Below, one piece after another: positions 9,121-62,340 of a stretch of 64,000 nucleotides of DNA (within the stretch, counting starts at the first letter, position 1; each line of letters starts with the position of its first letter). The notes below the pieces were generated by a model. The model was not told the DNA's origin, did no database searches, and saw only the letters and a list, made by a program, of their open reading frames with translations. Made by a program: the position numbers and the translations under genes. The stretch is from Desulfobulbus sp. (GTDB lineage Bacteria > Desulfobacterota > Desulfobulbia > Desulfobulbales > Desulfobulbaceae): contig NZ_JAVBXR010000108.1 of assembly GCF_030824455.1 (NCBI RefSeq), forward strand, positions 1 through 64,000, given 5' to 3'.

Positions 9121-10740
9121 ATGGCAGGTTTTGTGTATCAGGATCCCTTCCCTCTCGGCAAAGATGAGACCAAATTCCGATTGCTGGAGGGTTCCGGCAA
9201 GTATGTTTCCGTGGCGACCTTTGATGGCCAGGAAGTCCTCAAGGTGGCCCCCGAAGGGTTGAAAGTGATGGCCAACCAGGCGATGCGCGAGGTTTCGTTC
9301 CTCCTCCGTCCGGCGCACAATCAGCAGGTGGCGAAAATCTTTGACGATCCCGCGTCTTCCGACAACGACAAGGAAGTGGCGCTGGCCATGCTGCGCAACG
9401 CCGAGGTCTCCGCCAACTTCGTGCTGCCGGTCTGTCAGGACACCGGAACCGCCTGCGTAGTCGCCAAAAAGGGCCAGAACGTCTGGACCGGCTGCGACGA
9501 CGCCGAGCAGATCTCCGCCGGCGTTTACACCACCTACACCGAAGAAAACCTGCGCTATTCCCAGAATGCGGCGCTGACCATGTACGAGGAGGTCAACACC
9601 AAGACCAACCTCCCGGCCCAGATCGACATATACGCCACCCAGGGCAGCGAGTACAAGTTCCTCTTTCTGGCCAAGGGCGGCGGCAGCGCCAATAAAACCT
9701 ACCTCTATCAGGAGACCAAGGCCCTGCTCAATCCCACCACCTTGAAAAAATTCCTGGTGGACAAGATGAAAACCCTGGGCACGGCCGCCTGTCCGCCGTA
9801 CCACATCGCCTTTGTCATCGGCGGCACCTCTGCCGAGACCTGTCTCAAAACCGTTAAGCTGGCGTCCGCTAAATACCTCGACGCCCTGCCCACCAGCGGC
9901 AACGAGATGGGCCGTGCCTTCCGCGACGTCGAGCTGGAGAAGGAACTGCTTGAAGCGGCCGGCAACCTTGGCCTGGGCGCTCAGTTCGGCGGCAAGTATT
10001 TTGCCCACGACATCCGCGTGGTCCGCCTGAGCCGTCACGGCGCCTCCTGCCCGGTGGGCATGGGCGTTTCCTGCTCGGCCGACCGCAACATCAAGGCCAA
10101 AATCAACAAAGACGGCCTGTGGATCGAGCAGATGGACAGCGATCCCGGCAAGCTGATCCCGGCCAAGTACCGCGACCGCAGTTCCGCCCAGGTGGTCAAG
10201 ATTGATCTCAATCAGCCGCTGGACAAAGTGCGGGCCGAATTGACCAAACACCCGGTTTCGACGCCGCTTTCCCTGACCGGCACCATCATCGTTGGCCGCG
10301 ACATTGCCCACGCCAAATGGAAAGAGATCCTCGACGCCGGCAAGCCGCTGCCCGATTATCTCAAACAACACCCGGTATATTACGCTGGTCCGGCCAAGAC
10401 TCCGCCCGGCAAGCCGTCTGGATCGTTCGGACCGACCACCGCCGGCCGCATGGATTCCTATGTCGACCTGTTCCAGAGCAACGGCGGTTCCATGGTGATG
10501 ATCGCCAAGGGCAACCGTTCGCAGCAGGTCACCGACGCCTGCAAAAAGCACGGCGGCTTCTACCTGGGCTCCATCGGCGGTCCGGCCGCTCTGCTGGCCG
10601 AGGAGAACATCAAAAAGGTGGAATGTCTGGATTATCCCGAACTGGGCATGGAAGCGGTCTGGAAGATCGAAGTGGTTGACTTCCCGGCGTTCATCCTGGT
10701 GGACGACAAGGGCAACGACTTCTTCAAAGGATTGCTGTAA
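9121..10740 (+). CDS. fumA: class I fumarate hydratase (iron-sulfur)
   Basis: A 539-residue oxygen-sensitive [4Fe-4S] fumarase of the single-chain FumA/FumB type. It interconverts fumarate and malate in the TCA or reductive branch. The N-terminal catalytic domain has the cluster Cys regions [26 protein letters not shown] and [17 protein letters not shown]. The C-terminal swivel domain has [23 protein letters not shown] Shine-Dalgarno AGGAG sits 8 bp upstream of the chosen ATG. It stands alone, with 368 bp before it and a hairpin after it. Confidence 0.95.
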
Positions 10741-49102: not shown

Positions 49103-49222
49103 ATGATTCATCGCCCTTTTGATCCGTTCCGCGACCGACTGAGCCGGGACATCCGCAACCAGCTGTCCGAATCCCTGCTGGTCTGTTTGCGCGAGCGTCG
49201 ACTCGCCCCCGCCCAAGAGTAG
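49103..49222 (+). pseudogene. DUF309 gene, 5' fragment (cut by Mu-like element)
   Basis: ATG at 49103 with GGAG 8 bp upstream encodes MIHRPFDPFRDRLSRDIRNQ and about 18 more residues before a stop at 49220-49222 that lies inside the inserted element. The FDPFRDRxSRDIRNxLSE pattern is the DUF309 N-terminus. The host part ends at 49217. The rest of the gene is at 62341-62759; joined, the two give 534 bp, or 177 codons plus stop, in one frame. DUF309 is a small helical protein of unknown function. Confidence 0.85.
49215..49217. other. left copy of target-site duplication (AAG)
   Basis: AAG here is repeated at 62338-62340 on the other side of the element. If one C-to-T change is allowed, the duplication is 5 bp (CCAAG at 49213-49217 versus CTAAG at 62336-62340), the size made by Mu. 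The 3-bp reading gives perfectly symmetric element ends. Confidence 0.6.
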
Positions 49223-49260
49223 AGAAACAGGATAATGAAACGGGTGGAATCGGGATAAAA
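49218..49260 (+). promoter_or_regulatory. left transposon end with two transposase-site motifs
   Basis: AGTAG at the tip, GGATAAT at 49230-49236, and AATCGGGATAA with GGATAA at 49253. Further ACGGG-type motifs follow to about 49290. The spacing of 12 bp from the tip and 23 bp between motifs is the same at the right end. Confidence 0.75.
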
Positions 49261-49393
49261 CGGGGGCAAACGGGATCGAATGGGAATGGAAAGGTAGATG
49301 AATTTGGCGAAAATCAAAAACCATCTTGACTGTGTCAAAATGGTTTTTTTGGTGAAAAAACTTGAACGGTGAGACTCAGACCACTTGCTTACC

Positions 49394-49816
49394 TCACAGG
49401 GAAGAATCTTGAGAGACGGATTGTCTTTTCATTCCCTGTAAAAATCTTCCAATAGCGCTCTTTGATGGTGCCCGGTTTTTGCCGAATTTTTTTACAAGCT
49501 CTTCGTGCCACTCTTTAAGCGATAGGTACCGGTCAATCCCGAGGATGTAGGCTTTTATCTCTTGGTCCTTGTTGATTGTACTTATGCCTCCTCGCCGTCG
49601 ACGAATCAAATTCGAATTGAACCCGAGGCATGAATGATCAATAACGTCTTCCGGTGGATTATGCCCTGAAGCGATGATATAAATTCCTGCCGAAAGAATT
49701 GCTACGGCATCGTTCTTATGTAACCCTATCAGGCCTTGTACGATGGCCTCAGCCTGCTGGACGATCTGATCTGGATTCCAGGCCTTGTCCTGGTTGGATG
49801 AGGTATCTTTGGTCAT
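49394..49816 (-). CDS. hypothetical protein, last gene of the early operon
   Basis: A 140-residue protein of unknown family. Residues 15-50 are hydrophobic-helical (AIVQGLIGLHKNDAVAILSA). The C-terminal part, LSLKEWHEELVKKFGKNRAPSKSAIGRFLQGMKRQ, looks like a helix-turn-helix (SKSAIGRFL as recognition helix). It overlaps the GemA-like gene by 4 bp and is the gene nearest the left end, about 170 bp from the tip. Confidence 0.6.
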   Translation of the reverse strand: MTKDTSSNQDKAWNPDQIVQQAEAIVQGLIGLHKNDAVAILSAGIYIIASGHNPPEDVIDHSCLGFNSNLIRRRRGGISTINKDQEIKAYILGIDRYLSLKEWHEELVKKFGKNRAPSKSAIGRFLQGMKRQSVSQDSSL

Positions 49817-50379
49817 GCTATTCCCCCTGCTGCGCCTGTAGCGCGCGGTTCATTTTTCTTGTTGCCACCATTACGCTTCCGGCTGGCAACCCGTCCTTTC
49901 AAAACCTCGATCAAGTGATGCGCCATATCAGCGGTCATCCATTGCCAAGAGGCCACTTTCACCTCTGGGCCGCCCCGACCATTCTCCAGGAAATGATTCA
50001 AGGTGGCTTCCATCTGCTTGTCGGCTCCTTTCGACCATTCATCCCGGAGAGACCACCAGAGCCCGAAAATGAACTCAAGCTGGCCCATGCTGGGGCGGCC
50101 TTTCCTTGCCGCCACCTTGCCGGCCCTGGCCAGGAGTTGGGCGCCTTCTGGAAGATCTTCCCACCTCCAAGCAGCAACGCTCTTCCGGACCTTCTTTTCA
50201 GCCTTGTCGGCAAGGTTGCACAGATGGCCGATAACGGCTTGAATCTGGCGCGGGCTGCGGAGATCCTTGCAACTGTTGACACCGGCCCGGTTCCGCAGAA
50301 TATCGCGGTACGTGTCGTCATCCAGACCGCAAACCCGCTGCAAGGTCTTTATTCTCTTGATCTCGGTGTTGGTGATCAT
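49813..50379 (-). CDS. GemA-like regulatory protein (DUF1018)
   Basis: A 188-residue protein. The opening MITNTEIKRIKTLQRVCGLDDDTYRDIL followed by SCKDLRSPRQIQAVIGHL is the GemA/Gp16 (DUF1018) pattern of Mu-like phages. A central RPSMGQLEFIFGLWWSLRDEW and a final basic tail follow. In Mu, gemA affects host gene expression and DNA gyrase. It follows the B-type ATPase by 10 bp. Confidence 0.82.
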   Translation of the reverse strand: MITNTEIKRIKTLQRVCGLDDDTYRDILRNRAGVNSCKDLRSPRQIQAVIGHLCNLADKAEKKVRKSVAAWRWEDLPEGAQLLARAGKVAARKGRPSMGQLEFIFGLWWSLRDEWSKGADKQMEATLNHFLENGRGGPEVKVASWQWMTADMAHHLIEVLKGRVASRKRNGGNKKNEPRATGAAGGIA

Positions 50380-50389
50380 AACGGCGCTC

Positions 50390-51316
50390 TCAACCTGCGG
50401 CCGCCCGCTGCAGCTCTTCCTCTTGGCTCAGCAAATCGCGCAAAGACGTTTTCCCGGCCTTCGCCGTCTGTTCCTGTTGTAGGGGCGTCTTTGTCGCGAC
50501 GGCCGCCCTTGCCTTGCCGTGCTGCTTTCCCTGCTTCTCGTGCTCAGAGGGAAACAGCGCCTCAACATCATCAAGCAGCACCTGCCGCCGTCCGGAAAGC
50601 AAAGCCTGTTCCATCAGGCAGAATAGCATATTCTTGAGATCTTCGAAATTATGGCTCCCGGGAAGGCCCGCTATCACCTTCACGGCATCAGCGGCCACAC
50701 TGGATTTCATCGCCCTTGTGACAAAGTACTCAACCTCATCGGGTGATAACCCCTTCATCTGCACAGCATCAGCACGGAGCTTGACTTCAGAAACGCCCGG
50801 TTTGTTCATCGGATCTGACTGACCAACCAGAATGACAGAGAACAACTCTGATTTTCCCATCCAGTCCATTTCCCTGATTCTCTTCAAGGAACGAAGCGTC
50901 ATGCCGTGCAGGTGGTGCGCCTCTTCAATGATCAGGACAACATCCGTTCCGGTTGAGGCTTCTCCAAGTATGCGCCGAAGCTGCCGAGCGCGGATCTCCC
51001 TGCCTCGCTTCGGCTTCTCATTGCTCAGATCAAGGATCAGCGCCTGCTCGATATCGCCGATGAGCAACTTGTGGATGTCGTTTGCCAGCGCCGCAGCCCG
51101 CCGGACATTCTTCAGTTTGTCCAGCGCGGACCGGACTGCATTGCTTTTGCCAATTCCCCGCTCGCCGATCACGGCCACCATTGATCGGCTCTTGACGGCC
51201 ATGCTCACGACTTTCCCTATTTTGACATGATCCTGGCTCTTGATGCCGACCTGTTTGAAGGGATCATTCGAGAAACCAAATTCGGCCAAAAGCTCCAGCT
51301 TTGAAACCTTAACCAT
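50390..51316 (-). CDS. MuB/TnsC-like AAA ATPase (transposition protein B)
   Basis: A 308-residue ATPase. AGGAGG is placed best for the ATG at 51316 (MVKVSKLELL); further upstream ATGs exist. Walker A is in AVIGERGIGKSNAVRSAL, Walker B in DVVLIIEEAHHLHG and sensor-like VILVGQSDPMN. AAA proteins of this group bind target DNA and stimulate the DDE transposase. It overlaps the transposase gene by 8 bp, the A-B pairing of Mu-like elements. Confidence 0.88.
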   Translation of the reverse strand: MVKVSKLELLAEFGFSNDPFKQVGIKSQDHVKIGKVVSMAVKSRSMVAVIGERGIGKSNAVRSALDKLKNVRRAAALANDIHKLLIGDIEQALILDLSNEKPKRGREIRARQLRRILGEASTGTDVVLIIEEAHHLHGMTLRSLKRIREMDWMGKSELFSVILVGQSDPMNKPGVSEVKLRADAVQMKGLSPDEVEYFVTRAMKSSVAADAVKVIAGLPGSHNFEDLKNMLFCLMEQALLSGRRQVLLDDVEALFPSEHEKQGKQHGKARAAVATKTPLQQEQTAKAGKTSLRDLLSQEEELQRAAAG

Positions 51317-52922
51317 GTGCATACCTCCTTTTTTCTTGCTCCCTTTTATCAAGGATCTTCCCCGTAAGTTCTTCAACAAATGCTCGACTCAGCCCGTGTT
51401 CCGTGAATTGCTGCTCAAGCCATGTCCAATCCTCGTCTCCTTTCTTGGGATATTCCCCCGTTCTCTCCATGAAGCAGCCCATGGCCTCTTCCAGGGAGCC
51501 AAAGGTATCCGTCCTGGTGATGAATACTCGGTCAAACGGCCGTTCTTCCTGCGCCTTGACAGGAAAGTTGATGATCTTCTCATCCACATTTTTTTCCTGG
51601 AACAGGGTTGCCGTGATCTGCAAATCTTGGCCAGCCTTGACGTTCTTCTGGTGTTCAGTATGGGGGTGGGCTGTAAAGGTGCCGACAGGGTTGGGCTTGA
51701 ACGGGATAACCTCATATTTCTGCCCGGTTTTTACATCCTGGACGATGATGTCATCGGTGTGTGCGCCTTTGATTACCCACACCCAAGCGTCGTGCAGGCC
51801 CTTGACTTCAAAGAGTTCTGTATCGAGCCTAAATGTGCCGTCACGTTCAACCTTTCTCTTTTCCCGTGTGTTGATCGTTGCAATGGCACCGGCTGGCAAC
51901 GGTCGAACGCCGCCGAACTGGGAAAGGCCTATCCTTTTCCACATCTGTTCACGGGTCACCCTTTTTTCATAGCGGTGGTCCCTGCGGTTGTATTCTGTGT
52001 CCAGAAAAATCAAAAACTGTCTGTTGAGTTCGCTGAGAGTGATTTCAAATTTTTTCCGGTCATCAACCACCAAGAACTGTTTCTCGAAGCGCTGCCAAAG
52101 AGTACGCCAAGGTCGTTCTATCTTACCGTGGGCATCCTTGGCTCCGGGCTCGCTGGGGTCTATGGCTACATCCAGGCGTGCAAAAAAATCTTCGGCCATC
52201 TTGCCCCGCATCATCGGCCCCTTGTCGCCTTTGATGCTCTCCGGCAGGCCGTGGAACGTTTTATCTTCCGTTTTACTCCAGGCCCATACCAGGAATTCCA
52301 GATTTTCAGCTGCTGTTTCACCGGTAGCCGCCATATACCGCGCCGCCAAACAGCCGGAGTAGTCATCGACAACTCCGTATATCCAGAGCTTCATCTTGAT
52401 TGGAAGAGGTTTGTTCTTGTAATTCTGGGACGATCCTTCATGCAGTTTCAACAGGTAGTCGCCATCCGGAAGGGCTTTGACCACATGGAGGAATTGTGAG
52501 GTTGAGGCGTCGACATGGTGCAGCTGGTTCGGCCGTTCAGCCTGGAAACGCTGTAGCCGGCGGCGGGTCTTGTTGAGCTGGAGTTCCCGTGCGCACCGGT
52601 TGAGACTGCCAACAGTAAATAGTGGCGCGTCCTCCGGCAGCAGGTTGTTTTTGCGGGCCACGGCATAGGCCTGATCTGTTGAGAGTGGCGTGGTGCTGTC
52701 GGGCACCCTGAATTTAACCTGGTAGACGATCCTGGTGATATCCTCCAAAGAGGAATTGCCGCTCTTTCCCCGCACCCTGTCCGTTTGCTGAAGTGCCCAA
52801 ATTTTCTTAACAGAGCACTCCAGCACCGACGCCCACCTGGTGATAATAGCCGTTTTGGTCCCTCTCGGCGCCCGCTGCAATTCCGCCTTGATCTGCAGTT
52901 CTATCTCAGGGGTGAATGCCAT
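51309..52922 (-). CDS. Mu-type (rve) DDE transposase A
   Basis: A 537-residue transposase from the ATG at 52922. N-terminal helix-turn-helix regions (residues 10-45 and 95-130) precede an rve integrase core. The catalytic triad is D138 (HHVDAST), D233 (IKGDKGPM) and E269 (AHGKIERPWRT); VVDDYSG at 186 is the usual core strand. A Mu-type C-terminal beta-barrel and tail follow. It does not carry the classic MuA winged-helix start. The gene appears intact and forms the A-B pair with the ATPase. Confidence 0.9.
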   Translation of the reverse strand: MAFTPEIELQIKAELQRAPRGTKTAIITRWASVLECSVKKIWALQQTDRVRGKSGNSSLEDITRIVYQVKFRVPDSTTPLSTDQAYAVARKNNLLPEDAPLFTVGSLNRCARELQLNKTRRRLQRFQAERPNQLHHVDASTSQFLHVVKALPDGDYLLKLHEGSSQNYKNKPLPIKMKLWIYGVVDDYSGCLAARYMAATGETAAENLEFLVWAWSKTEDKTFHGLPESIKGDKGPMMRGKMAEDFFARLDVAIDPSEPGAKDAHGKIERPWRTLWQRFEKQFLVVDDRKKFEITLSELNRQFLIFLDTEYNRRDHRYEKRVTREQMWKRIGLSQFGGVRPLPAGAIATINTREKRKVERDGTFRLDTELFEVKGLHDAWVWVIKGAHTDDIIVQDVKTGQKYEVIPFKPNPVGTFTAHPHTEHQKNVKAGQDLQITATLFQEKNVDEKIINFPVKAQEERPFDRVFITRTDTFGSLEEAMGCFMERTGEYPKKGDEDWTWLEQQFTEHGLSRAFVEELTGKILDKREQEKRRYAHG

Positions 52923-52926
52923 GCTC

Positions 52927-53796
52927 TCATATCTCCGGGTTAAAGGCGTCAATCCATTCCCGGTAAAATTTGTCGAGCGTATTTCGGGCCAAATTGATAT
53001 TGCCGTCGATTTTGTTCCGTGTGACCATATCGCAGTTGAGTCTTTCATCATTCAAGAACTGTTGAGCCAAGGAGACCACAACCAAAGTCGCTTTGGTGAG
53101 TTCTGTAACTTGGCTTAACGCCCATTCTGGGGTGGCGTCATCGACCGGAGCGAATTTTTGCAGGTCTTTGCATTGTTTCACCAGGGCGGCATTCTCAGCC
53201 TTCAATCCTTTGGTTTCCTCGGCAATGATTTTGTCCCGGTTCTTCTTCTCCTTTGCGAGATCGGCCGCCAATTCCTTGGCGCTCTTGAGCTGCCAATCTT
53301 CCAACGGCGTGCCGTAGATGGTGCCCTCCTCCTTGAACTCCTCAAGATCATCTTCTGGCAGATCGAGCAGACAAAGCGCTTTGGTGATGCCGCCCTTGGC
53401 CAAGGCCTGGAGCTTCGGATCACTCTCCAGTCTCAGGGCAACCTTCATGAATTTTCTGGCCTGTTGGGCGGATAATGGAAAATTTGCCTCCAGCCATTTT
53501 GTGAAATTCCCATGTCCTTCGACTTCCTTGATGATTAGGAGCTTGCGACCAATCTCAATATAGGCCGTGGTGATAAACCCAACTTGCACTTGAATTTCTG
53601 CCGTAAGTCGTTGAATATCGTATTCCTGGCCACCGAGATACTTTTCCACCATCTTCAGGGCTGTCTCCCTGATCGCTTCATCGGCATTGTGCTGGTCGAT
53701 CACCTGGAGGTCGTTTCGAAGCTTCCGATGCCCTTCGCCGATCTGCACTTCAGCGTCATCGGTAACCGCTTTTGCATGTCCTGTTTCTTCCGTCAT
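52927..53796 (-). CDS. DUF3102 protein of the element
   Basis: A 289-residue protein begun at the ATG at 53796, with AGGTGAG upstream. Residues 70-135 have the DUF3102 pattern, a helical block reading IGRKLLIIKEVEGHGNFTKWLE followed by FPLSAQQARKFMKVA. Residues 180-225 are a Lys/Glu-rich coiled coil. DUF3102 proteins occur in phages and plasmids; their role is unknown. It lies 4 bp before the transposase start. Confidence 0.75.
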   Translation of the reverse strand: MTEETGHAKAVTDDAEVQIGEGHRKLRNDLQVIDQHNADEAIRETALKMVEKYLGGQEYDIQRLTAEIQVQVGFITTAYIEIGRKLLIIKEVEGHGNFTKWLEANFPLSAQQARKFMKVALRLESDPKLQALAKGGITKALCLLDLPEDDLEEFKEEGTIYGTPLEDWQLKSAKELAADLAKEKKNRDKIIAEETKGLKAENAALVKQCKDLQKFAPVDDATPEWALSQVTELTKATLVVVSLAQQFLNDERLNCDMVTRNKIDGNINLARNTLDKFYREWIDAFNPEI

Positions 53797-53810
53797 GAAT
53801 CTCACCTCTA

Positions 53811-54011
53811 TCATTGAGCTTGAAGCAGATTTGATGCTTGCATAAGGCCTTCGTTTACCTGTTCGAGAATCCGCGACAATCCTTCGAACCCATCTATTGT
53901 CACATCTTCTTTAATAGAAGGGGAACCCGTCACATCGCGAAGAAATGCCACAATCTCCCGCTGGCTCCCTATAATATCTACGGCCATTATCACCTTGTTC
54001 CGTTCAGCCAT
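53811..54011 (-). CDS. 66-residue hypothetical protein
   Basis: From the ATG at 54011 (GAGGAAAAG upstream) it reads MAERNKVIMAVDIIGSQREI and ends VNEGLMQASNLLQAQ. An in-frame ATG at 54071 would add 20 residues. No domain is recognised. It is placed between two small early genes on the same strand. Confidence 0.5.
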   Translation of the reverse strand: MAERNKVIMAVDIIGSQREIVAFLRDVTGSPSIKEDVTIDGFEGLSRILEQVNEGLMQASNLLQAQ

Positions 54012-54031
54012 TTGCTTTTCCTCTTCAATGT

Positions 54032-54310
54032 TCAGTTTGATGCCTTCGGCTGCAAATTGGCCTCGCAACAACTCGATATTTTACCCAGTTCATCGAAAAC
54101 GCTGCGCAGGATAAAGGTCAGCCCGATTTCACCCTCTGGCGAGATACCCAACCCATTGTCACGGCTGAAAGCCCCTGTGCAGCCAACATCGATCAGAAAC
54201 GCGATTACCCCTTTCATCATTTCGATGTCTTCGACGACATCATTGACATTTATAGGGCGCTGATCCTTTACTTGAGCAACAAGGCTTGTTCTTGGCGCTG
54301 CGGTCTCCAT
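54032..54310 (-). CDS. 92-residue hypothetical protein
   Basis: Begins METAAPRTSLVAQVKDQ after GGGGGAAAGGA. The core (MMKGVIAFLIDVGCTGAFSR, then GEIGLTFILRSVFDELG) resembles no family I know, but its helical pattern is like the 66-residue protein next to it, so the two may be related or interact. Confidence 0.5.
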   Translation of the reverse strand: METAAPRTSLVAQVKDQRPINVNDVVEDIEMMKGVIAFLIDVGCTGAFSRDNGLGISPEGEIGLTFILRSVFDELGKISSCCEANLQPKASN

Positions 54311-54351
54311 TTTTCCTTTCCCCCGGGTCTCGTTTTGGTTGAATGAATCAA

Positions 54352-54648
54352 TCAGCCAAGATATTCACGCTCTTGGGCTTCTATTTCTGCTCGTTTTTGT
54401 GCAACATTGCGTCTGTAGCCGTCTGCTATCCTGACAATGCCGGGAGAGCACTCCCACCGTTCGCCCACCTTCCGGACCATGTTCTTGTGCTCCAGAGTTT
54501 TGAGATAGCGGTAGACCTTGTCCGCCTTGAATCCTGATTCGGTTTCAATCTCTTTTGCGGTTAATCCCCTGAAAATAGGATCACAAAGGGAAAAAAAGAG
54601 AGAGAGGCATTCGCACGTTCCCCGATTGATGTATTTCTCTTCCGGCAT
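54352..54648 (-). CDS. winged-helix DNA-binding protein
   Basis: A 98-residue protein. LTAKEIETESGFKADKVYRYLKTLEHKNMVRKVGERWECS is an IclR/MarR-like winged helix: helix, recognition helix (ADKVYRYLKTL) and wing. It is probably a regulator or an accessory DNA-binding protein of the early operon. Confidence 0.65.
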   Translation of the reverse strand: MPEEKYINRGTCECLSLFFSLCDPIFRGLTAKEIETESGFKADKVYRYLKTLEHKNMVRKVGERWECSPGIVRIADGYRRNVAQKRAEIEAQEREYLG

Positions 54649-54656
54649 GGCAATTC

Positions 54657-55202
54657 CTATTTTTTGATGCCTTTTTTCTTCAGCTCTCGCTTGAGCTGCT
54701 GCATTTCCGATATGTTCTTCTCCAATTTTCCCAGGGCCAGCATGGCGAGATCCTCTTTTGTGGTCACCTCGGCCCCCTCGGCTGCCACAATAGCCCGCGC
54801 CGGCTCCAGGGATTGGGTGATACGGTGGATGGCAAAGAGGAAATAGGCCTTGACCGGGTACTCCACCGGCTTAGAGAGGTAGTGATTGAACATCTCATAC
54901 GAGAGCGGCCGCTGGCACTGGCCGTTCTTGTGCCCATCTTCAGTACGGCCCCAGTAGGTGTTCATGGCGTCGCAGACCTGCTCACGACTCAGACCGGATT
55001 CGCGAATGCTCCGTTTGATGGCTGCCGCGATTTCAATGCAGTCCTCGGCCTCGCTGGCCGATTCGCGGGTAACTTGCGGTTGCGATGAGCTGCACTGTTC
55101 GGCAATCTCTTCCTTAGCTGCTGTGTAGGTGGCAAGAGCATCAAAGATGTTCAATTGCCCGGCTTCTGCAGCTTTTTTTGACTTGTTTGAACGTGGTGTC
55201 AT
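54657..55202 (-). CDS. 181-residue phage-type hypothetical protein
   Basis: Begins MTPRSNKSKKAAEAGQLNIF. The middle, IAAAIKRSIRESGLSREQVCDAMNTYWGR, is helix-turn-helix-like and is followed by LSYEMFNHYLSKPVEYPVKAYFLFA. The C-terminus is a charged helix. It resembles phage proteins of unknown role carried by Mu-like elements next to the transposase. It lies 8 bp upstream of the winged-helix gene. Confidence 0.6.
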   Translation of the reverse strand: MTPRSNKSKKAAEAGQLNIFDALATYTAAKEEIAEQCSSSQPQVTRESASEAEDCIEIAAAIKRSIRESGLSREQVCDAMNTYWGRTEDGHKNGQCQRPLSYEMFNHYLSKPVEYPVKAYFLFAIHRITQSLEPARAIVAAEGAEVTTKEDLAMLALGKLEKNISEMQQLKRELKKKGIKK

Positions 55203-55300
55203 GCGTCTATTCCTTGTTCGTATTTAGACGGTGACGACTCGCACCCGATATGCTACTTTCTCTACAAAAGCCTTGTTGATGGATATTTTCCTAACCATCA

Positions 55301-55588
55301 TCAGCTCTGAGGGTGACGAATATTGCGGGAAGATGAACGCTGCCGCTTTCTCAGCGGTTGGTGAAACTCATCGTACCGGGAGGGCCAGATCACCCACGGT
55401 TCAACACCGATAATATTGGCGATGATTCGTTCCATGGCTGGCCAGGATTTGCGGAGGGCGTCGAACGGGGAAACCTTATGGTAGCCGTTTTCCAACCCAA
55501 CACGGGTCATGCTGTAGCCTTTCTTGCCCAAGGCAGCTTTGATGTCCCAGGGGTGCCAGTCACCTGGTGAAGGTGTTTGCATTGGCAT
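55301..55588 (-). CDS. Ner/Nlp-type DNA-binding regulator
   Basis: A 95-residue protein, preceded by AGGAGG. DWHPWDIKAALGKKGYSMTRVGLENGYHK then ANIIGVEPWVIWPSRY is the Ner/Nlp pattern: in Mu, Ner is the negative regulator of early transcription and lies divergent to the c repressor. The same divergent arrangement is seen here (repressor at 55865). It would start the leftward early operon. Confidence 0.85.
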   Translation of the reverse strand: MPMQTPSPGDWHPWDIKAALGKKGYSMTRVGLENGYHKVSPFDALRKSWPAMERIIANIIGVEPWVIWPSRYDEFHQPLRKRQRSSSRNIRHPQS

Positions 55589-55864
55589 GTATGTCCTCCT
55601 ACCTCTTGATTTAGGACTGATTTTCGTCGACCTTGAAACCTGTCCTGGTTTTATGATTCACTTAGAAATAACACAATTGGGTTCGTAGTCAAGGGAAAAT
55701 AAAACCCGATATGGTTCTTTTTTTGTTTGAATGGTCTCGGCGACAATGCTGAATGGGTGCCTAGCTGCGATAAACGGCCCTTTTGTTATCTGAAATCACA
55801 AAGGTGAAAACCTAATCGGGTCTCATGCTTGTTAACCCGGCAGCTATAAAAAGTAGGCGAAGGT
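55589..55864. promoter_or_regulatory. divergent control region between ner-like and repressor genes
   Basis: A 276-bp AT-rich intergenic stretch that must carry the early promoter (leftward) and the repressor promoter (rightward). ACCCGAT (55704-55710) and its inverse ATCGGGT (55814-55820) plus nearby GGGTT and AACCC forms are candidate operators. No promoter is certain. Confidence 0.5.
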
Positions 55865-56416
55865 ATGAATGATTTTGGGGAAAGGTTGAAATTGGTGAGG
55901 GGTAACATTCCTCAAAAGGAGTTTGCCGAAAAAGTTGGATTCCATTTCAATACAATTGGAAGGTGGGAAAGAGGTGAAAAATATCCTACCCAACCAGATA
56001 TATGTAAAATCCTTTCCAATTATCCTGAGATTAATCCTTCTTGGTTGTTAACTGGAAATGGCGCTCAACTAGTGGTCGATGATTTGGAGATCAGGAAGAT
56101 GGCTTTACTTGAACCAATCGATCACGATCAGTGTGATTGCCAATCGGAAAAAAGACTTGAGCGCAGGAGGCAGCTTCTACAGAGAAGTCCAAAGGAATTG
56201 TATGATGAAGATTTCGAACTTCTAGAGCATGTTTTTGGCAAAATAATTGAATTTAGAGAAAAATATCCTGATGCGCTCAAGCAGGAGGATTACGCTGAAG
56301 CCTCTACAATAGCATACAGCCTGTGCCAAAAAGAAAACCTCGCTTCAGGCGCTTTGATTTGTTCGGTTGTTCTGGAGTGGTTAAAAAAAAAGGACGAAAC
56401 TTTTAAGCTGGTATAG
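55865..56416 (+). CDS. XRE-family repressor (c-like)
   Basis: A 183-residue protein. Residues 5-55 (FGERLKLVRGNIPQKEFAEK then HFNTIGRWERGEKYPTQPDICKIL) are a Cro/CI helix-turn-helix, followed by SWLLTGNG, typical of phage repressors. The remaining 120 residues are helical without a visible LexA-type peptidase motif. It is divergent from the ner-like gene and is probably the element's repressor. Confidence 0.85.
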   Translation: MNDFGERLKLVRGNIPQKEFAEKVGFHFNTIGRWERGEKYPTQPDICKILSNYPEINPSWLLTGNGAQLVVDDLEIRKMALLEPIDHDQCDCQSEKRLERRRQLLQRSPKELYDEDFELLEHVFGKIIEFREKYPDALKQEDYAEASTIAYSLCQKENLASGALICSVVLEWLKKKDETFKLV

Positions 56417-57138
56417 CTGCCCCCCCTGGCAACCTCATCAGGTTCCATTACCTTAAAGATGAACTGATTCGCTTTTCCACTGCCACTATCCTTGGCCCAA
56501 AACGAAACAAGTTTCGTTTTACCTAGCCGCCCCCATCAAAACGGAAACCGGTTTCCGGTTTCCCTCGCCCCTTGGATTAAAAACAAACTAATTCGTTTTT
56601 GAACGCCCCCCGTCGCCGCCGCCCCAAAGCTTCCAAGCCAATAGCGTTAGAACCTTGTTTAAAATTCTCTGTATTTGACAGGACATGTGCGGCCCATACC
56701 TTGGGCCGCGCTGCATTAAAAATTCACCAGAGGGCGTTTTTACGCTTCCCATCCTCTGGCTCTCTGCTCTCCTATCTGTAGAGCGGCAGACATCCTGCCC
56801 GCCCGCCCATGAAACAGGTTGGTCTCTCTACTATTTCTAATGGGGGTGACCTGTTTTCGTTCGAAAAACGGAATTGCCTGCGTTGCCCTAAAAAAATCGA
56901 CAACCGGTTTCTGTTTTGGCCTCCAACTGACACCCCACAATCCGCAAAAACGCTCTCCTTCCCCTGCTGCCAGAAGAACCCGGCGCATCGATTTTCAAAT
57001 CCTACATTATGGATTTTATTAAAAAAAATCAGCATAGCGGTCTCGTTTGCAATTGAAAAAGCCGTGTTTATTTGTTCGAATGCGTTCGGGTGAATTCATA
57101 AAGCTGGAAATTAAAGCAATAGCGTTGAGGCTAAAACT
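56417..57138. other. 722-bp intergenic region with an array of AT-rich dyads
   Basis: No ORF here has family resemblance. Between 56431 and 56601 dyad symmetries recur at roughly 40-bp steps, separated by C-rich spacers. The rest holds scattered short inverted motifs (such as CCGGTTT and GTTCGAA) and a possible TTGACA at 56675. It separates the repressor from the Mor-like genes. Confidence 0.55.
56431..56601. repeat. five dyad-symmetric motifs spaced about 40 bp apart
   Basis: Dyads are AACCTcatcAGGTT (near 56431), AACTGATTCGCTTTT (56462), AAAACGAAAC/GTTTCGTTTT (56499-56520), GGAAACCGGTTTCC (56543-56556) and AACAAACTAATTCGTTTTT (56582). Spacers are C-rich (GCCGCCCCCATC, CTCGCCCCTT, GAACGCCCCCC). 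The arrangement suggests operators or a structured leader. Confidence 0.6.
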
Positions 57139-57417
57139 ATGAAGGGCGAGAGGGCATCTGATCGGCTTCCCGATATGGAACACCTTACGGGATCGCTGAA
57201 GAAGATCGCGGAAGTCATAGGCGTAGAGAAAACCGTCGCGCTGTCGAAAATTCTCGGGGGGAGATGGTTCTATATTTGCGGGATTGATTCTCTCGAAAGA
57301 AAAATTAGAAATCGCCGCATTCGTGATGAATACGACCGTGGAGGTGTGACTGCTGTTGATCTTGCCCGGCAATTTGGCCTGTCTCAAAGCATGATCCAAA
57401 AAATACTGAGTGAGTGA
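57139..57417 (+). CDS. Mor-like transcription activator
   Basis: A 92-residue protein. LKKIAEVIGVEKTVALSKILGGRWFYI is the Mor/C dimerisation region, and GGVTAVDLARQFGLSQSMIQKIL is a helix-turn-helix at the C-terminus. In Mu, Mor activates middle transcription after early expression. Here it precedes a second Mor-like protein and the second transposase. Confidence 0.82.
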   Translation: MKGERASDRLPDMEHLTGSLKKIAEVIGVEKTVALSKILGGRWFYICGIDSLERKIRNRRIRDEYDRGGVTAVDLARQFGLSQSMIQKILSE

Positions 57418-57418
57418 T

Positions 57419-57661
57419 ATGACGACTGCGAGCAAAACGATGGCGCCAATCCCGCCGGAATATATGCCCAAACCGGAAGAACTTCCCGGCGATTTGGAAA
57501 TAATTGCTGAAGTGATTGGGGTTGAAAGCGCAATAGCGCTTTCCCGTGAGTTTCGGGGTTGCAAACTTTACGTCGCGTTTATCGACCGAGCGATGCGAAA
57601 AAGCGCGGAACAGGAAAAGGATGTGTCGTGTCATCCTGACACAAATCAACCGGATTCTTGA
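57419..57661 (+). CDS. Mor-like protein without the DNA-binding helix-turn-helix
   Basis: An 80-residue protein from ATG 57419; a GTG three codons earlier is also possible. PKPEELPGDLEIIAEVIGVESAIALSREFRGCKLYV matches the Mor dimerisation region closely, but after IDRAMRKSAEQEKDV the sequence ends with no helix-turn-helix. It could be a truncated copy or an inhibitor that forms dimers with the full-length Mor. Confidence 0.65.
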   Translation: MTTASKTMAPIPPEYMPKPEELPGDLEIIAEVIGVESAIALSREFRGCKLYVAFIDRAMRKSAEQEKDVSCHPDTNQPDS

Positions 57662-57716
57662 TCGACCTTCGGCAGGAATACGGTGACTCGAAATATTTTC
57701 AACAAAAGGAGCAGTT

Positions 57717-58736
57717 ATGCAGACGCAGCAAATGATTGAAAAAAGAAGAGCCTTGCTTAAAGAGATCCAGCAAACAAAATCAAAATTGCATCATCTTCCA
57801 TACCTTGATGGAATTCAGCGGGAAAGATGGGATGCACATTCACGCATGGAAAACATAATGTCCCGGTATGGAACCAATAAGGAAGCGTGGCCAGGGCATA
57901 TACCTGCTGAATACAACAGAGCCAAGGCAACGGTCGAAAGTGCCGATTCCAAAGTGAAGGCCGCTAAAGACGAAAAAGCGCAGATTGATGCACGACTGGA
58001 AGACCTTCAGGCGCAGTTTGACGCCCTTTGTCAGCAGATTTCGGCCGCTGACCTCTTGCCCATGCAGGCCACCGTCACGGATTTGTCGCAGAAGATTGAA
58101 AATCTGAAGGTACTGGTTGCCGAGGAAGAAGGGTGCGGGGCCGAAGATGGCCAGGGGAATAACCATCCGCTGGTACAATTGAACAAAGAAAAAGAAGATT
58201 TACTTGCCGCCATTGCTTGCGGAGAATCCAGCGATGAAGAACGTCTAGCGGATCTTTCCCAGGAAATATCAAAAGAAGAAGAGTTGCAAGATAACCATGT
58301 CAATGCCCTGATTACATCATCTCAGAAAATTGCGGGCCTCAACCGGAAGATTAAGCAAGCAGAGCAAGAGCTTGCCCTTGCCCAACGGAACTACCTCGAC
58401 GGCTTGACCATGTTTCTTGATCAGGAGTTGGAAAAGGCAGGCGGCAATTATGTCAAAGACGCCGGCAACCTTGCGGCGGCATATTCCAAAGTGATTGCGC
58501 TTGCCGCAATTCTCGAGAAGTGCGGGATGACCAAGAATGTATTTGGCACATATACCCGCCAGTTTAAAATCCCTTCCTTCCTCTTGGACACTTGCATGGC
58601 GCATGAAATCTCGGACAAAAACGGCGTGCTTTTTCAGTTCGACGGGAGCGACGTTCAGGAAAAGATTGATGCCGAAATCGAACGGATTGGTCGTCTTGGA
58701 ATCAATATCCCCGTGGGAGTTACAGCTTCCCTGTAA
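57717..58736 (+). CDS. coiled-coil hypothetical protein
   Basis: A 339-residue protein after AAAAGGAGCAG. Most of the first 240 residues are heptad-rich helices (IEKRRALLKEIQQTKSKL, VKAAKDEKAQIDARLEDLQAQF, INRKIKQAEQELALAQRNY-like). The C-terminal 80 residues look globular (YTRQFKIPSFLLDTCMAHEI then NGVLFQFDGSDVQEKI). No family is recognised. Position between Mor genes and the second transposase suggests an element-specific function. Confidence 0.6.
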   Translation: MQTQQMIEKRRALLKEIQQTKSKLHHLPYLDGIQRERWDAHSRMENIMSRYGTNKEAWPGHIPAEYNRAKATVESADSKVKAAKDEKAQIDARLEDLQAQFDALCQQISAADLLPMQATVTDLSQKIENLKVLVAEEEGCGAEDGQGNNHPLVQLNKEKEDLLAAIACGESSDEERLADLSQEISKEEELQDNHVNALITSSQKIAGLNRKIKQAEQELALAQRNYLDGLTMFLDQELEKAGGNYVKDAGNLAAAYSKVIALAAILEKCGMTKNVFGTYTRQFKIPSFLLDTCMAHEISDKNGVLFQFDGSDVQEKIDAEIERIGRLGINIPVGVTASL

Positions 58737-58762
58737 AGGGAAAAGCGGCAGCAACCGGCCTT

Positions 58763-58843
58763 GCTGATTGTTCACCGACGAAAGAATGGAGATCGCCACT
58801 TCCTCCGGCGCTCCGGCTCGTGGTGCGTCGGTGAACAATCAGC
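58763..58843. repeat. 18-bp perfect inverted repeat with 45-bp centre
   Basis: GCTGATTGTTCACCGACG (58763-58780) and its complement at 58826-58843. The right arm is followed by CTTTTGAGC. It could be a hairpin terminator for the coiled-coil gene, an RNA structure, or a binding site. It lies 103 bp before the second transposase. Confidence 0.75.
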
Positions 58844-58945
58844 CTTTTGAGCAACCCCTGAGGCTGATACAATTCAAGGTGCCACATCCATTCAACCTGA
58901 ATATCCCGACCATATCGAACCGAACCTTGTAGATCAGGAGGGAAC

Positions 58946-61018
58946 ATGGCGACGGTAACAATATCGGAGATAGCGCAAGCGCTCAATATGAGTTGGATAG
59001 CGGCCGGAAGGAAAGCAATACGTGAAAAATGGATTGCCGAAAGATATTCCAACAGCTCAGGGAACAAACGAAAATTCCCTGTAGAGCGGTTACCGATCAT
59101 GGTCAGGTTGGCTGTGCTGAAACATGAAGCCCTGCAAATTGATCATCGGCTTGAACTGCAACCTGCTCCCCCGGCAAAGCTGACCAGGAAAGACAAAGAG
59201 AAATATCCTGATCAGACGCTTATGCTGAAAGATTGGCAATGGGATGTGTTCGAAGCCAGAATCGCATTGTTGCGGGAATTCGAACAGCTCAAAGCCAAAA
59301 ATGGAACCAACAACGCCATAAAAGCGATGTTGGCCATGATTGAACAAAATCTTTTGCCGACGCCACTCAAACAATTTGTCTATCGGGCGAATGCCAGGCG
59401 TGGCGGAGAAAGGAATCTGTCCAGGTCAATGATATTGGGGTGGCAGCGGACTGTAAAAAAACACGGCATCTTGGGCTTGATTCCACGGGCTGTCAAAAAG
59501 AAGAAAAATCAGGTGTGGCGGCCCTATTTCCAAGAAATAATCAATGTTTCGCCAGAAATTTCCATCCCAAAAGCACAAGAAAAATTGAAGTCGATTCTTC
59601 CGGTGGGAATGAAGCGGCCGTCCTACCACCAGCTTCTCAGAGCACTGAAAAAGGACTCCCTTGTTGAGAAAGTATACAGGGTCAATGGCTCATTCATTCC
59701 GATCAATCCAACGAGTAAAACCAAAGACGTATTTTATGTCACCCTGAAAATCGATCTCGAGAAACCTTTCGTCAGCCTGAACCGCCTACAAGAAATAATT
59801 GCCCAGCGACCCGAGATTGACAAGGACATCAGGACCTCTTTTTCGCAAGCCGTCAAACATATTATTCCCTTGTTGACTCGTCACACTCCGCTCCGACTGC
59901 AGTCTCCACTCACAGAAGAGGAGATTGCCCAACTCAATCGATACAAATTCGGCACGCATAAAAAGGACAGCGCAAAAGCGAAAGGTATTTTGATGATCGA
60001 CCAGAATGCGACTTTGCTTGACATCGGCATCGCCACGAATGCGTCCAAAGGCAATATTTATCGGTGGTTGAGAGAATTCAACGCCAAACGAGTAGCGTCT
60101 ATTGAAGTAACGGTGGACTGCCCAGAACGGGAAGAGCAGAGGGAACGTCGAAAAACCAGGGTAATCGACATCATTCACAACCAGCCTGAAACCTATGGCA
60201 TCAACAGGACATCATGGACTTACGGGACTATCTCCAAGGCCTATGCTCAGACATACGGAGAAGAATGTTCCCCGAGTATAATCCAGACCATCGTCAAACG
60301 TACAGGATATACCTGGAGGCGAGCAAGGAAGGTTTGGACAAGTCCTGATCCCAAATACAAAGAGAAAATCAGCAAAGTCCTAGATACGCTGCACGACTTG
60401 CAAGAGGGGGAACTGTTCTTTTTTATCGATGAAGCCGGACCATATCAAGTGAAGCAATACGGCGGGGTTTCGTTGGTGGAAAAAGGCCAGAATCCGGAGG
60501 TTCCCGAACATCAAAAATCGAAAGGAAGCATTCAGCTCATTGCAGCCCTTGAGGCTCGGACAAACCAGGTGGTCTGGTCTTATATTCGCAGCAAAGGCAC
60601 AAATAACATCATCTTCATGCTTGCTCAACTGTGTGACCTCTATCCAACGGCTCCACGGATTTTTGTGACTTGGGATTCAATATCCTCCCATGGGAGCAAA
60701 GACCTCCTTTCGTGGAAAGACAGTCACAACAGATCGACAAAAGAAAAAGGGTCAGGGCCGCTTGTTGAAATCGTTCCCTTACCCTCAAGGTCCCAATTTT
60801 TAAACGTGGTTGAAGCCGTATTCAGCGGCATGAAACGAGCCGTCATTCATAACAGCAACTATGGCTCCAAAAAGGAAATGGAAGCGGCCATTTCTCGCCA
60901 CTTCGAAGAAAGAAACCTGTTCTACAAGAACAACCCTAAACGAGCAGGCAGTAAAATTTGGGATCGGGAATCGTTCGATCTCGAGAAACTGCCCGGCGGG
61001 CTTTACAGGAAGATGTGA
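58946..61018 (+). CDS. chimeric transposase: MuA-type DNA-binding domains fused to an IS630-type DDE domain
   Basis: A 690-residue protein with AGGAGG upstream. Residues 3-58 (TISEIAQALNMSWIAAGRKAIREKWIAERY, then RKFPVERLP) match the MuA N-terminal winged helix. Residues 95-180 (LPTPLKQFVYRANARRGGER then LSRSMILGWQRTVKKHGILGLIP) and 195-240 (ISIPKAQEKLKSILP then KRPSYHQLLRALKK) match the other MuA end-binding domains. From about 325 comes an IS630-type transposase: HTH (LLDIGIATNASKGNIYRWLREF), winged helix (420-460), and DDE at D495 (FFIDEAGP), D577 (VTWDSISSHGS) and E623 (LNVVEAVFSGMKR). It appears intact. The catalytic core is unrelated to the rve core of the A protein. Confidence 0.75.
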   Translation: MATVTISEIAQALNMSWIAAGRKAIREKWIAERYSNSSGNKRKFPVERLPIMVRLAVLKHEALQIDHRLELQPAPPAKLTRKDKEKYPDQTLMLKDWQWDVFEARIALLREFEQLKAKNGTNNAIKAMLAMIEQNLLPTPLKQFVYRANARRGGERNLSRSMILGWQRTVKKHGILGLIPRAVKKKKNQVWRPYFQEIINVSPEISIPKAQEKLKSILPVGMKRPSYHQLLRALKKDSLVEKVYRVNGSFIPINPTSKTKDVFYVTLKIDLEKPFVSLNRLQEIIAQRPEIDKDIRTSFSQAVKHIIPLLTRHTPLRLQSPLTEEEIAQLNRYKFGTHKKDSAKAKGILMIDQNATLLDIGIATNASKGNIYRWLREFNAKRVASIEVTVDCPEREEQRERRKTRVIDIIHNQPETYGINRTSWTYGTISKAYAQTYGEECSPSIIQTIVKRTGYTWRRARKVWTSPDPKYKEKISKVLDTLHDLQEGELFFFIDEAGPYQVKQYGGVSLVEKGQNPEVPEHQKSKGSIQLIAALEARTNQVVWSYIRSKGTNNIIFMLAQLCDLYPTAPRIFVTWDSISSHGSKDLLSWKDSHNRSTKEKGSGPLVEIVPLPSRSQFLNVVEAVFSGMKRAVIHNSNYGSKKEMEAAISRHFEERNLFYKNNPKRAGSKIWDRESFDLEKLPGGLYRKM

Positions 61019-61077
61019 CCGTTGTTTATGGCAAACTTCTTTTCTTCTAAGCTTGCTGTCCTAGTCGCTCACGTCTA

Positions 61078-61608
61078 ATGGCCGGAGAACAATCACCTGT
61101 CTCTCGGCAATATCGAATTTACAATAGACCAAAGGAGATCCACGTGTGGAATTCAACAGCGGCAACGCTCAGGCCGACTGAAATCAATCCTATCGAGAAT
61201 CAAGTACCGGAGTGGGTTGAGCTAATCCCCTCCGGAGCGGTTATCGGGCGCGATGGCCGACGCTGGATGAATAGCGACCCACTTGGCATTATTCAGGCCT
61301 TTATTGCCCGTTGCTTGGACTTGCCGGTTGACATCGAACACTCTACTGAATTGAAGGCTCCCAAGGGAGAGGCCGCGCCGGCAGTGGGTTGGGTTAGAGA
61401 ACTGAAAGAAATTGCTGGGGCAATATGGGGAAGGATTGAATGGAATGAGGCTGGCCGGCAGATTGTCGCCACCAAACAATATCGATATTTGAGCCCTGTT
61501 ATTCGATATGGACGAACCAATGGGGATATCCTCGATCTGACCTCCGTAGGTCTCACCAACATGCCAAATTTGCACCTCCCGGGGCTTAACCAAAGCGTAT
61601 GGCAGTGA
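61078..61608 (+). pseudogene. Mu I-type phage protease, truncated remnant
   Basis: The ORF encodes the protease domain of Mu gpI-like proteins: VELIPSGAVIGRDGRRWMNSDP, LDLPVDIEHSTELKAPKGEAAPAVGWVRE and YLSPVIRYGRTNGDILDLTSVGLTNMPNLHLPGLNQ. In phages this is followed by a long scaffold region; here it ends after LNQSVWQ. The frame then restarts at 61610 with a repeated segment of the scaffold C-terminus. No capsid gene follows. An in-frame start near 61144 may be the true one. Confidence 0.78.
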
Positions 61609-61609
61609 C

Positions 61610-62026
61610 TTGGCGATCAGCACCAGGGCACTGAATGCCACTGAACGAGCCGTCTGTTCCATGATGGGTGTCACGGAAGAGGAATATTTAAAAACGGCCA
61701 TGCATACGAATGACCAGGCGGTGGCCACCTCGGCACTGAATGCCACTGAACGAGCCGTCTGTTCCATGATGGGAGTCACGGAAGAGGAATATTTGAAAAC
61801 GGCCAGGCATACGAATGACCAGGCGGTGGCCACCAGGGCACTGAACGCCACTGAACGGGCCGTCTGTACCATGATGGGGGTCACGGAAGAGGAATATTTG
61901 AAAACGGCCAGGCATACGAATGACCAGGCGGTGGCCACCTCGGCGCTGAATGCCACTGAACGGGCCATCTGTTCCATGATGGGAGTCACGGAAGAGGAAT
62001 ATTTGAAAACGGCCAGGAGTGAGTAA
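61610..62026 (+). pseudogene. repeat-expanded scaffold C-terminus of the Mu I-type protein
   Basis: A 138-residue frame starting at TTG 61610, 1 bp after the protease stop. It consists of four units of a 35-residue repeat (ALNATERAVCSMMGVTEEEY then LKTARHTNDQAVATS). ALNATERAVCxMMGVTEEEYLK is the C-terminal motif of Mu-like gpI scaffold proteins, normally present once. A deletion of the centre plus amplification of the end explains the pattern. Confidence 0.65.
61627..62026 (+). repeat. 105-bp tandem repeat, four units (last partial)
   Basis: Units begin at 61627, 61732, 61837 and 61942 with GGC(A/G)CTGAA(T/C)GCCACTGAAC. They differ by only a few bases. The period is 105 bp, or 35 codons, so the frame is kept. 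The last unit stops after 85 bp at the TAA. Confidence 0.95.
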
Positions 62027-62295
62027 TTTTTTATTTTTGGAGGCTACGATGAAATCGATGCTAAAAAGGAAAGGAAAGACTTTTAAAGCAAGAATGAAGA
62101 TAACCAAAAGGGGGGGATGTTTTTCAGGCCTCCAATCACTCCCCGCAATTCAAAAATTCGGTGCAGGAAACATGAGGCATGTCTACACCGAACCCCTATT
62201 GGCTTATCCGGCATCAAAAACCAACCTAAAATTTGACAACCCGCGTTCAAACTTTCAAGATTCATCTTGGCTCTGTCAAGATCGCGATTTTTCCG

Positions 62296-62337
62296 ATTAT
62301 CCCGATTTTTGCGCTTCAATTATCCCGCGCCGCTACT
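62296..62337 (-). promoter_or_regulatory. right transposon end with two transposase-site motifs
   Basis: Read inward on the minus strand: AGTAG at the tip (62337), GGATAAT from 62325 and GGATAAT from 62302, the latter within AATCGGGATAATCGG. Distances of 12 and 35 bp from the tip equal those at the left end. Confidence 0.75.
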
Positions 62338-62340
62338 AAG
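62338..62340. other. right copy of target-site duplication (AAG)
   Basis: AAG matches 49215-49217. Joining GCCCAAG to CGACAGCGG restores the DUF309 frame. Confidence 0.6.

Follow-up and report, generated by a model that had tools for sequence, protein, structure and literature searches.

Positions 58946-61018 of a 64,000-nt stretch of Desulfobulbus sp. DNA, hereafter the window, raise the question of whether one protein joins the end-binding domains of a MuA-type transposase to the catalytic domain of another DDE family, and what such a protein might do inside a Mu-like element. An earlier note, made from the letters alone, had proposed exactly this chimera; sequence and profile comparisons confirm it, and predicted folds do so for the Ialpha domain and the C-terminal half. 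As judged from its sequence, a MuA-type DNA-binding region is fused in frame to an IS630-family DDE transposase. The MuA-type module is made up of an enhancer-binding-type winged helix and two end-binding domains. The parts of the protein are the following.

58946..61018, plus strand: chimeric transposase (P0001), 690 aa, one uninterrupted ORF with NCBIfam and PHROGs matches
58946..59671, plus strand: MuA-type end-binding region, residues 1-242 (phrog_310, MuA N-half alignments, 1tns), with approximate sub-borders, by alignment with MuA rows, of Ialpha ~3-88, Ibeta ~91-181 and Igamma ~190-242
59672..59896, plus strand: linker and clade-specific domain, residues 243-317 (alignment with P0008 and the proteins of L050, L051 and L060-L062)
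59897..61015, plus strand: IS630-type transposase, residues 318-690 (NF033545; Mos1 as top fold match)
60428..60430, plus strand: catalytic D495 codon, invariant column
60674..60676, plus strand: catalytic D577 codon, invariant column
60812..60814, plus strand: catalytic E623 codon, invariant column

The MuA domain order had been proposed for residues 3-240. In PHROGs, positions 9-252 of the MuA-transposase family profile phrog_310 match residues 3-246 of the chimera (E 6.6e-19), collinear with MuA of phage Mu in the order Ialpha-Ibeta-Igamma, and the homology stops at the Igamma border; unlike MuA, the chimera has neither the rve core nor the Mu-type C-terminus and carries an IS630-type core instead. 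At E up to 1, Pfam lists neither rve nor Mu-transpos_C for P0001, and both for P0004. When the chimera N-half was combined with ten MuA rows, the resulting profile hit two PDB sequences of interest, 1tns (MuA Ialpha, E 4.4e-8) and 1g4d (DNA-binding domain of the Mu repressor, E 7e-6); the single chimera protein matched none at E up to 10. HTH_Tnp_Mu_1 is called by Pfam in 7 of the 11 members of the N-half alignment, the window copy not being one of them. MuA N-halves are 31-50% identical to that of the chimera, which rules out a generic helix-turn-helix, rather than a Mu one, for the window copy.

Where the likeness ends is consistent across proteins. In a first comparison, which used the ORFs at 13 loci of other genomes, residue 242 is the end point of 11 alignments; L022 and L023 align over residues 4-62 only. 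A later comparison of 19 proteins, which adds eight viral loci and leaves out L022 and L023, reaches residue 242 in every case (19/19), with alignments that start mostly at residue 4-22 or later and, for L006, L016, L028, L034, L081 and L082, only from 63-94; L034 is cut by its contig end, and L081 and L082 are identical. All 19 other proteins continue with an rve core after the shared N-half, and only the chimera continues as IS630. In MuA of phage Mu, the Igamma structure comprises residues 178-242 and the core residues 258-560 (PMC3362531). Because the alignments stop at 242, and by these MuA borders, the switch in the chimera falls between end-binding region and core.

Structure prediction divides the MuA-type region more finely. 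The AlphaFold model of residues 1-260 (mean pLDDT 79, pTM 0.45) was matched by Foldseek to 1tns (probability 1.00, E 0.08, TM 0.69 by target) and to the Mu repressor structure 1qpm (probability 1.00, E 0.27); no PDB match reached E 0.001, and none of the best 50 of 352 matches is a separate Ibeta or Igamma structure. The predicted models thus support a MuA-like fold for Ialpha, while Ibeta and Igamma rest on the phrog_310 and MuA alignments, so that of the proposed domain order the sequence part stands throughout and the fold part for Ialpha. An absence of MuA-like folds, which would have spoken against the chimera, was not borne out. The model of residues 243-690 (pLDDT 74, pTM 0.47) has Mos1 mariner transpososomes as its top PDB matches (E 2e-7, probability 1.00), followed by IstA, TnsB and Sleeping Beauty.

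The C-terminal half resembles the IS630 family of the Tc1/mariner superfamily in its model match, its DDE triad and its Mos1-like fold. The NCBIfam model NF033545 matches residues 348-657 with 152 bits against a cut-off of 100 (E 2.3e-44), and Pfam places DDE_3 at residues 492-645 (E 2.7e-11). The proposed catalytic residues D495, D577 and E623 hold up, being invariant in 15 of 15 aligned rows. The chimera differs from that family in its N-terminal extension of ~317 residues, of MuA type up to 242, and in lying within a Mu-like element, where no clear IS inverted repeats were found around the gene. In a test for terminal inverted repeats around the window gene, 11 of 300 shuffles reach its score. 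IS-type repeats were clearly found at none of six Mu-borne loci and at all five ordinary IS630 copies compared (of 7 in genome G009), a weak test, as none of 10 other long IS630 genes shows them either. The motif TGATTGTTC(A/T)CCG occurs at 58765, 58833 and ~61085, in inverted orientation on the two sides of the chimera; its score is reached by 11 of 300 shuffles, and it is possibly due to chance. Shuffles for end similarities and inverted repeats kept base composition alone.

The N-half sits on a long branch (3.79) and is far diverged from all donors found, which would fit an old capture or relaxed constraint. Some Mu-like prophages in bacteria of this genus have MuA of the donor type. The host genome assembly (127 contigs, 92% complete, in which absence is not proof) contains no donor-type MuA gene besides the chimera, and neither half of the chimera occurs elsewhere in it. 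BLASTP gives no similarity between the N-half and the TnpA of the element itself (best E 10). In a correction to the earlier note, the end-binding part belongs to another MuA lineage than that of the element's own transposase. Fusion of a full MuA N-half to IS630 was seen in one genome only among the collections searched, and a search of phage records with P0001 gave two matches, both to the N-half only.

G+C content is 0.471, 0.458 and 0.476 in the N-half, linker and C-half, and 0.529, 0.547 and 0.539 at third positions. A recent IS630 insertion into a MuA gene was considered and rejected: the chimera is followed by a gpI remnant and not by the rest of an rve gene, clear IS inverted repeats and a G+C step were not found, the genome showed no donor MuA, and the IS630 part groups within a Mu-borne clade.

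The chimera lies in a Mu-like element with these features.

49220..62337, no strand: the complete Mu-like element of 13,118 bp, interrupting a host gene with flanks 49103-49219 and 62338 onward
49220..49290, plus strand: left end with AAACGGG repeats, like the left end of the G022 Mu-like prophage
50390..51379, minus strand: MuB-like ATPase (phrog_296 DNA transposition protein, E 4.1e-18)
51309..53051, minus strand: the element's own rve transposase TnpA, ORF of 580 aa (phrog_310 positions 269-508, E 5.6e-24)
52927..53814, minus strand: DUF3102 protein of the early region (Pfam E 2.3e-11)
55304-55588: phrog_769 transcriptional repressor (PHROGs)
55865..56416, plus strand: HTH repressor-like protein (HTH_3, Pfam E 1.6e-8)
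57139..57417, plus strand: Mor-type activator (PF08765, E 3.4e-10)
57717..58736, plus strand: coiled-coil-like protein, 339 aa, the name being a reading of weak Pfam matches
58763..58843, no strand: 18-bp perfect inverted repeat (58763-58780 / 58826-58843), from the sequence, between coiled-coil gene and chimera
61078..61608, plus strand: Mu gpI head-maturation protease remnant, first half (phrog_328 13-158 of 339, E 1.1e-46)
61610..62026, plus strand: repeated gpI C-terminal segment (phrog_328 297-336 of 339, four stretches)
62260..62337, minus strand: right end with CGGGATAA repeats, like the right end of L038

A separate rve transposase with an ATPase, as the earlier note had claimed, is borne out by phrog_310 and phrog_296; the Pfam rve match of TnpA is weak (E 0.0043, below the cut-off). 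TnpA is 52% identical to that of L038. The ends had been placed at 49218-49260 and 62296-62337, and the borders of the element are refined here to 49220-62337: joining the flanks across this interval gives a single reading frame of 177 aa, which we take to be a DUF309 gene. A check for a 5-bp target duplication gives AAG at 49217-49219 and 62338-62340 or, alternatively, CCAAG/CTAAG with one mismatch. Among window ORFs scanned with Pfam and PHROGs for phage head, packaging and tail genes, only the gpI protease remnants appeared. Roughly four tandem copies coding for the gpI C-terminus occupy 61610-62026, between chimera and right end, and short related segments occur in L050 and L062. Like Mu-like phages and laboratory mini-Mu, the window element has TnpA, a MuB-like ATPase, a repressor-like gene, a Mor-type activator and terminal repeats; it differs in its extra IS630-type gene and in having no terminase large subunit, portal or capsid in the parts scanned.

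The two ends point to different relatives. At the left end, 33 of 46 positions match the left end of the G022 prophage without gaps (300 shuffles give at most 27), and the gapped alignment scores 54 (200 shuffles, at most 31); the MuA of this prophage is of the donor type, the same type as the chimera N-half. The presumed end regions of L018, L019, L020 and L021, which have donor-type MuA, gave no alignment to the left end; L018 may lack its end. The right end aligns to that of L038 with a score of 52 (200 shuffles, at most 27), and the L038 TnpA is of another type than donor-type MuA. Both element ends are single copy in the host genome and no product of movement is visible in it (92% complete, 127 contigs; absence is not proof). 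Elsewhere, genome G014 contains two 96% identical Mu-like elements (L022 and L023), and a 245-bp copy of their end lies at 13806-14050 of L021 beside a third Mu-like prophage.

Relatives were searched for with the whole protein in 257 genomes of the order, and with residues 257-690 in 257 genomes of the class and 395 of the phylum. These searches gave one close relative, in G224 (locus L038), with 45% identity over 257-690, and strong matches of a second kind in G442, G470 and G499, with a partial one in G064. A collection of genome contigs gave nine loci, the close kind being represented by L051 (Geobacteraceae GWC2_53_11) and by L052, which is the exact reverse complement of L038. Viral contigs contributed L050, L060, L061 and L062 of the close kind and a fifth locus, L067, of the second. 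Single-sequence peptide patterns gave no confirmed relative, and the L050 protein had no match in phage records. From about residue 255 the alignment of the chimera is common to a Mu-borne IS630 clade: its IS630 half shares 45-51% identity with six proteins encoded by other small Mu-like elements, and these six are 42-71% identical to one another. In a tree of 23 IS630 rows, the seven Mu-borne proteins form one group (support 90/97; 86% of 200 bootstrap trees; none of 500 shuffles as low), and they do so again in a 25-row tree with L048, L058 and L067 (93/96; 95% of bootstrap trees). The larger tree leaves out the long-branched short row L008; L026 (the partial G064 relative) and L031 (a G160 fragment) are in neither. 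In both trees the program, following its rule, leaves the fork of the Mu-borne group open.

The relatives carry a shorter N-terminal extension. Positions ~93-190 of phrog_310 are matched by P0008 (L038) and by the proteins of L050, L051, L061 and L060 (E 1e-5, 2e-5, 5e-6, 3e-7 and 1e-4, respectively), with no match at 0.01 for L062, and hhalign gives this Mu signature a probability of 85% over 81 columns. A Mu Ibeta-like N-terminus is therefore found in six of the seven Mu-borne proteins, window copy included; only in the window copy is it joined by Ialpha and Igamma. The search for homologues keeping both halves, which the earlier note had suggested, found none with the full N-half in the collections covered, and the Ibeta-like extension in all relatives but L062.

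Gene neighbourhoods agree with this grouping. We queried loci with TnpA, ATPase, Mor, coiled-coil, hub, gpI and DUF3102 proteins from the family of the window element: Mu-element genes adjoin the IS630-type gene in all six Mu-borne relatives and in none of 15 other long IS630 loci (E 1e-4), three of which are only about 4 kb long; in one of the 15, L044, an annotated Mu transposase C-terminal protein lies about 4 kb away, unmatched by these queries. An rve-type TnpA accompanies the IS630-type gene in five of six relatives (none was seen in L051), and TnpA falls into three types, namely window/L038, L050/L060/L061 and L062. No gene was seen between the IS630-type gene and the right end or contig end in L038, L050, L051, L060, L061 or L062, the L061 contig ending at the stop codon of this gene and L062 showing ~200 bp beyond. 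The gene follows a baseplate-hub gene in L050 and L060 and the fused 3' end of a hub gene in L051; in L061 and L062 its predecessor encodes a tape-measure protein with a match to part of its family only. Upstream of it, in the window as in L060, L061 and L062, lies a coiled-coil-like gene of ~340 aa (BLASTP of the window protein against the latter three, E 2e-9, 1e-15 and 2e-21).

These elements look like internal-deletion derivatives of Mu-like phages. No strong family match to terminase large subunit, portal or capsid was found among the ORFs scanned in the window and in L061 (10), L062 (10), L050 (6) and L060 (4); for L038 and L051 gene content was read from lists of ORFs, and the four viral contigs were covered from 0.6-5 kb inward of their left ends. 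TnpA, ATPase and the IS630-type gene are retained, except that TnpA and ATPase were not seen in L051, which keeps the IS630-type gene. The IS630-type ORF is open in all seven members, beside phage late genes that match only part of their families. At L051:1699-2142, one fused ORF combines an early regulator with the 3' end of the gene for the baseplate hub. In L060 (~9625-9671) and L061 (~9808-9854), a TATAAT is succeeded by a GCCTC...GAGGC hairpin and by a T run that reaches the ATG of the IS630-type gene, which looks like a terminator or a leader hiding the ribosome site. Only part of the relatives show the hairpin clearly (z over 60 nt of -8.5 in L050, with the start set 6 nt before the ATG, and -4.3 in L051; by eye in L060-L062). 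As a general device insulating the gene from late transcription it was rejected, with z -0.1 in the window and -1.0 in L038.

Other long IS630 proteins place the Mu-type extension in context. Those of Alphaproteobacteria, Bacteroidota and others (for example Microvirga WP_173948948.1) are the nearest other rows in the tree and share the presence of extra N-terminal modules; unlike the Mu-borne proteins, their N-termini match IS21, IS3, IS481 or other transposase families, or none, and phrog_310 matches 0 of 15. In ten proteins scanned against NCBIfam, the IS21 (IstA) model matches the N-termini of P0006, P0007, L044, L049, L055 and L059, IS3 that of L053 and IS481 that of L056, all partial and below cut-off; the N-terminal regions of L043, L048, L057 and L058 have no PHROGs match. 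The partly IS21 (IstA)-like N-terminus seen at L042:7227-8873 (a Microvirga plasmid), L041, L044, L049, L055 and L059 is possibly a second kind of natural DDE chimera. L067:9326-10873 (IMG/VR 3300047160_033669) is a long IS630 gene in a tailed-phage-like contig without Mu-element genes, and its N-terminus matches another phage transposase family, phrog_8463 (E 1e-19). L048:1450-3690 (G499) encodes a 747-aa IS630 protein whose N-terminus resembles, by eye, two tandem copies of an HTH module. The earlier note had allowed for an N-terminal extension unrelated to Mu; this case did not turn up in the Mu-borne clade but does so in the 15 other long proteins. N-terminal modules, as predicted from these matches, vary across this part of IS630, and the Mu-borne clade has a Mu-type one.

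As possible functions the earlier note had put forward the element's real recombinase, a targeting factor or an excision enzyme. The chimera is the most elaborate of a seven-member IS630 clade in small Mu-like elements, located at or near the right end. Because the triad is intact, the gene keeps its right-end place, the N-termini are of Mu type and the frames are open beside incomplete phage genes, we read it as a functional DNA-cutting protein for Mu-type sites. Our main hypothesis, with a probability of about 0.5, is that it would give small Mu-like elements a second DDE recombinase, one directed to their ends. Beyond the fusion, triad, clade, position and Mu-like N-termini, which are observed, we infer Mu-end binding, cleavage and movement: the Mu-type module would recognise Mu-end-like sites and the IS630 core would then cut there. 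Tc1/mariner enzymes move by cut-and-paste, as the abstract of PMC5481204 also states. A Mu-end-directed version of this would let the element leave its site cleanly, and an element in which neither capsid nor packaging genes were found could in this way excise or move without replicative MuA transposition. The resemblance of the window left end to a prophage with donor-type MuA favors this hypothesis. Against it, that likeness extends to one phage only, four others with the same MuA type being unmatched; the right end matches L038, whose TnpA is of the other type; the long-branched N-half may have drifted in specificity; gpI remnants lie between chimera and right end; both ends are single copy in the genome, where no product of movement is visible; and the relatives show only a weak Mu signature, with E from 1e-4 to 3e-7 and no match for L062 at 0.01. 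Binding of the N-half to the ends of its own element is only partly supported by these comparisons. The relatives share the general plan, which suggests that small Mu-like elements acquired a second cutting enzyme. That there is a whole class of capsid-less natural mini-Mu elements with a dedicated second recombinase, in which a captured MuA region steers an IS630 core to Mu ends, we consider a tentative and rather doubtful extension; if true, the same ends could be moved in two independent ways, replicatively by MuA and conservatively by the chimera.

Among other explanations, the protein may be a passenger that does not move: an IS630 copy inserted long ago close to a Mu-like phage's right end and kept by chance, with a neutral swap of N-terminus and no present role for the window copy. 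The varied N-termini of other long IS630 proteins (IS21-, IS3- and IS481-type, by partial, below-cut-off matches), the deletion-derivative look of the elements, the long N-half branch and the L067 gene, which demonstrates that such genes do land in non-Mu phages, would agree with this; yet all seven ORFs are open beside incomplete late genes, and the near-right-end place is similar despite 42-71% protein identity among the six relatives. The inverted-repeat counts (found in 0/6, against 5/5 for ordinary IS630) also speak against it, weakly given 0/10 in other long IS630, and overall we regard a passenger as unlikely, if still to be taken seriously. Somewhat less probable again is an interference factor, in which the DNA-binding region of another MuA lineage from the same genus would block or cleave the ends or operator of rival Mu-like phages and protect element or host. 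That the N-half lineage is unlike the element's TnpA and present in prophages of the genus, with no donor-type MuA found in the host genome apart from the chimera, would agree with this, but the six relatives carry an Ibeta-like module only, with no evident donor phage, and all seven keep the IS630 triad, which simple occupation would not need. Finally, a draft genome in 127 contigs, and a full fusion seen in one genome only, raise the issue of an assembly artefact joining two genes, which we hold to be very improbable: neither half is found elsewhere in the genome, G+C is even across N-half, linker and C-half, and the N-half is far diverged from every donor found.

A literature search for MuA-IS630 fusions or Mu-borne IS630 genes gave none among the matches listed, in open-access text with most subscription papers outside it. 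The earlier note knew of no Mu-like element with two transposases of different DDE families, and none was listed in the open-access literature either; the element is not unique, however, having six relatives, five of them with the gene beside an rve TnpA. The new aspect is the combination of known parts and the clade, for which we could not find a description. The end-directed recombinase hypothesis aside, two DDE superfamilies have here exchanged domains in nature, with a clean border between the domains, and this has happened where IS630 lineages differ in their N-terminal module (Mu, IS21, IS3 or IS481 type). The chimera makes the modularity of transposon-end recognition directly testable, supplies naturally occurring templates from which transposases might be retargeted, and draws attention to small Mu-like elements that have two transposases, a class for which no description turned up.
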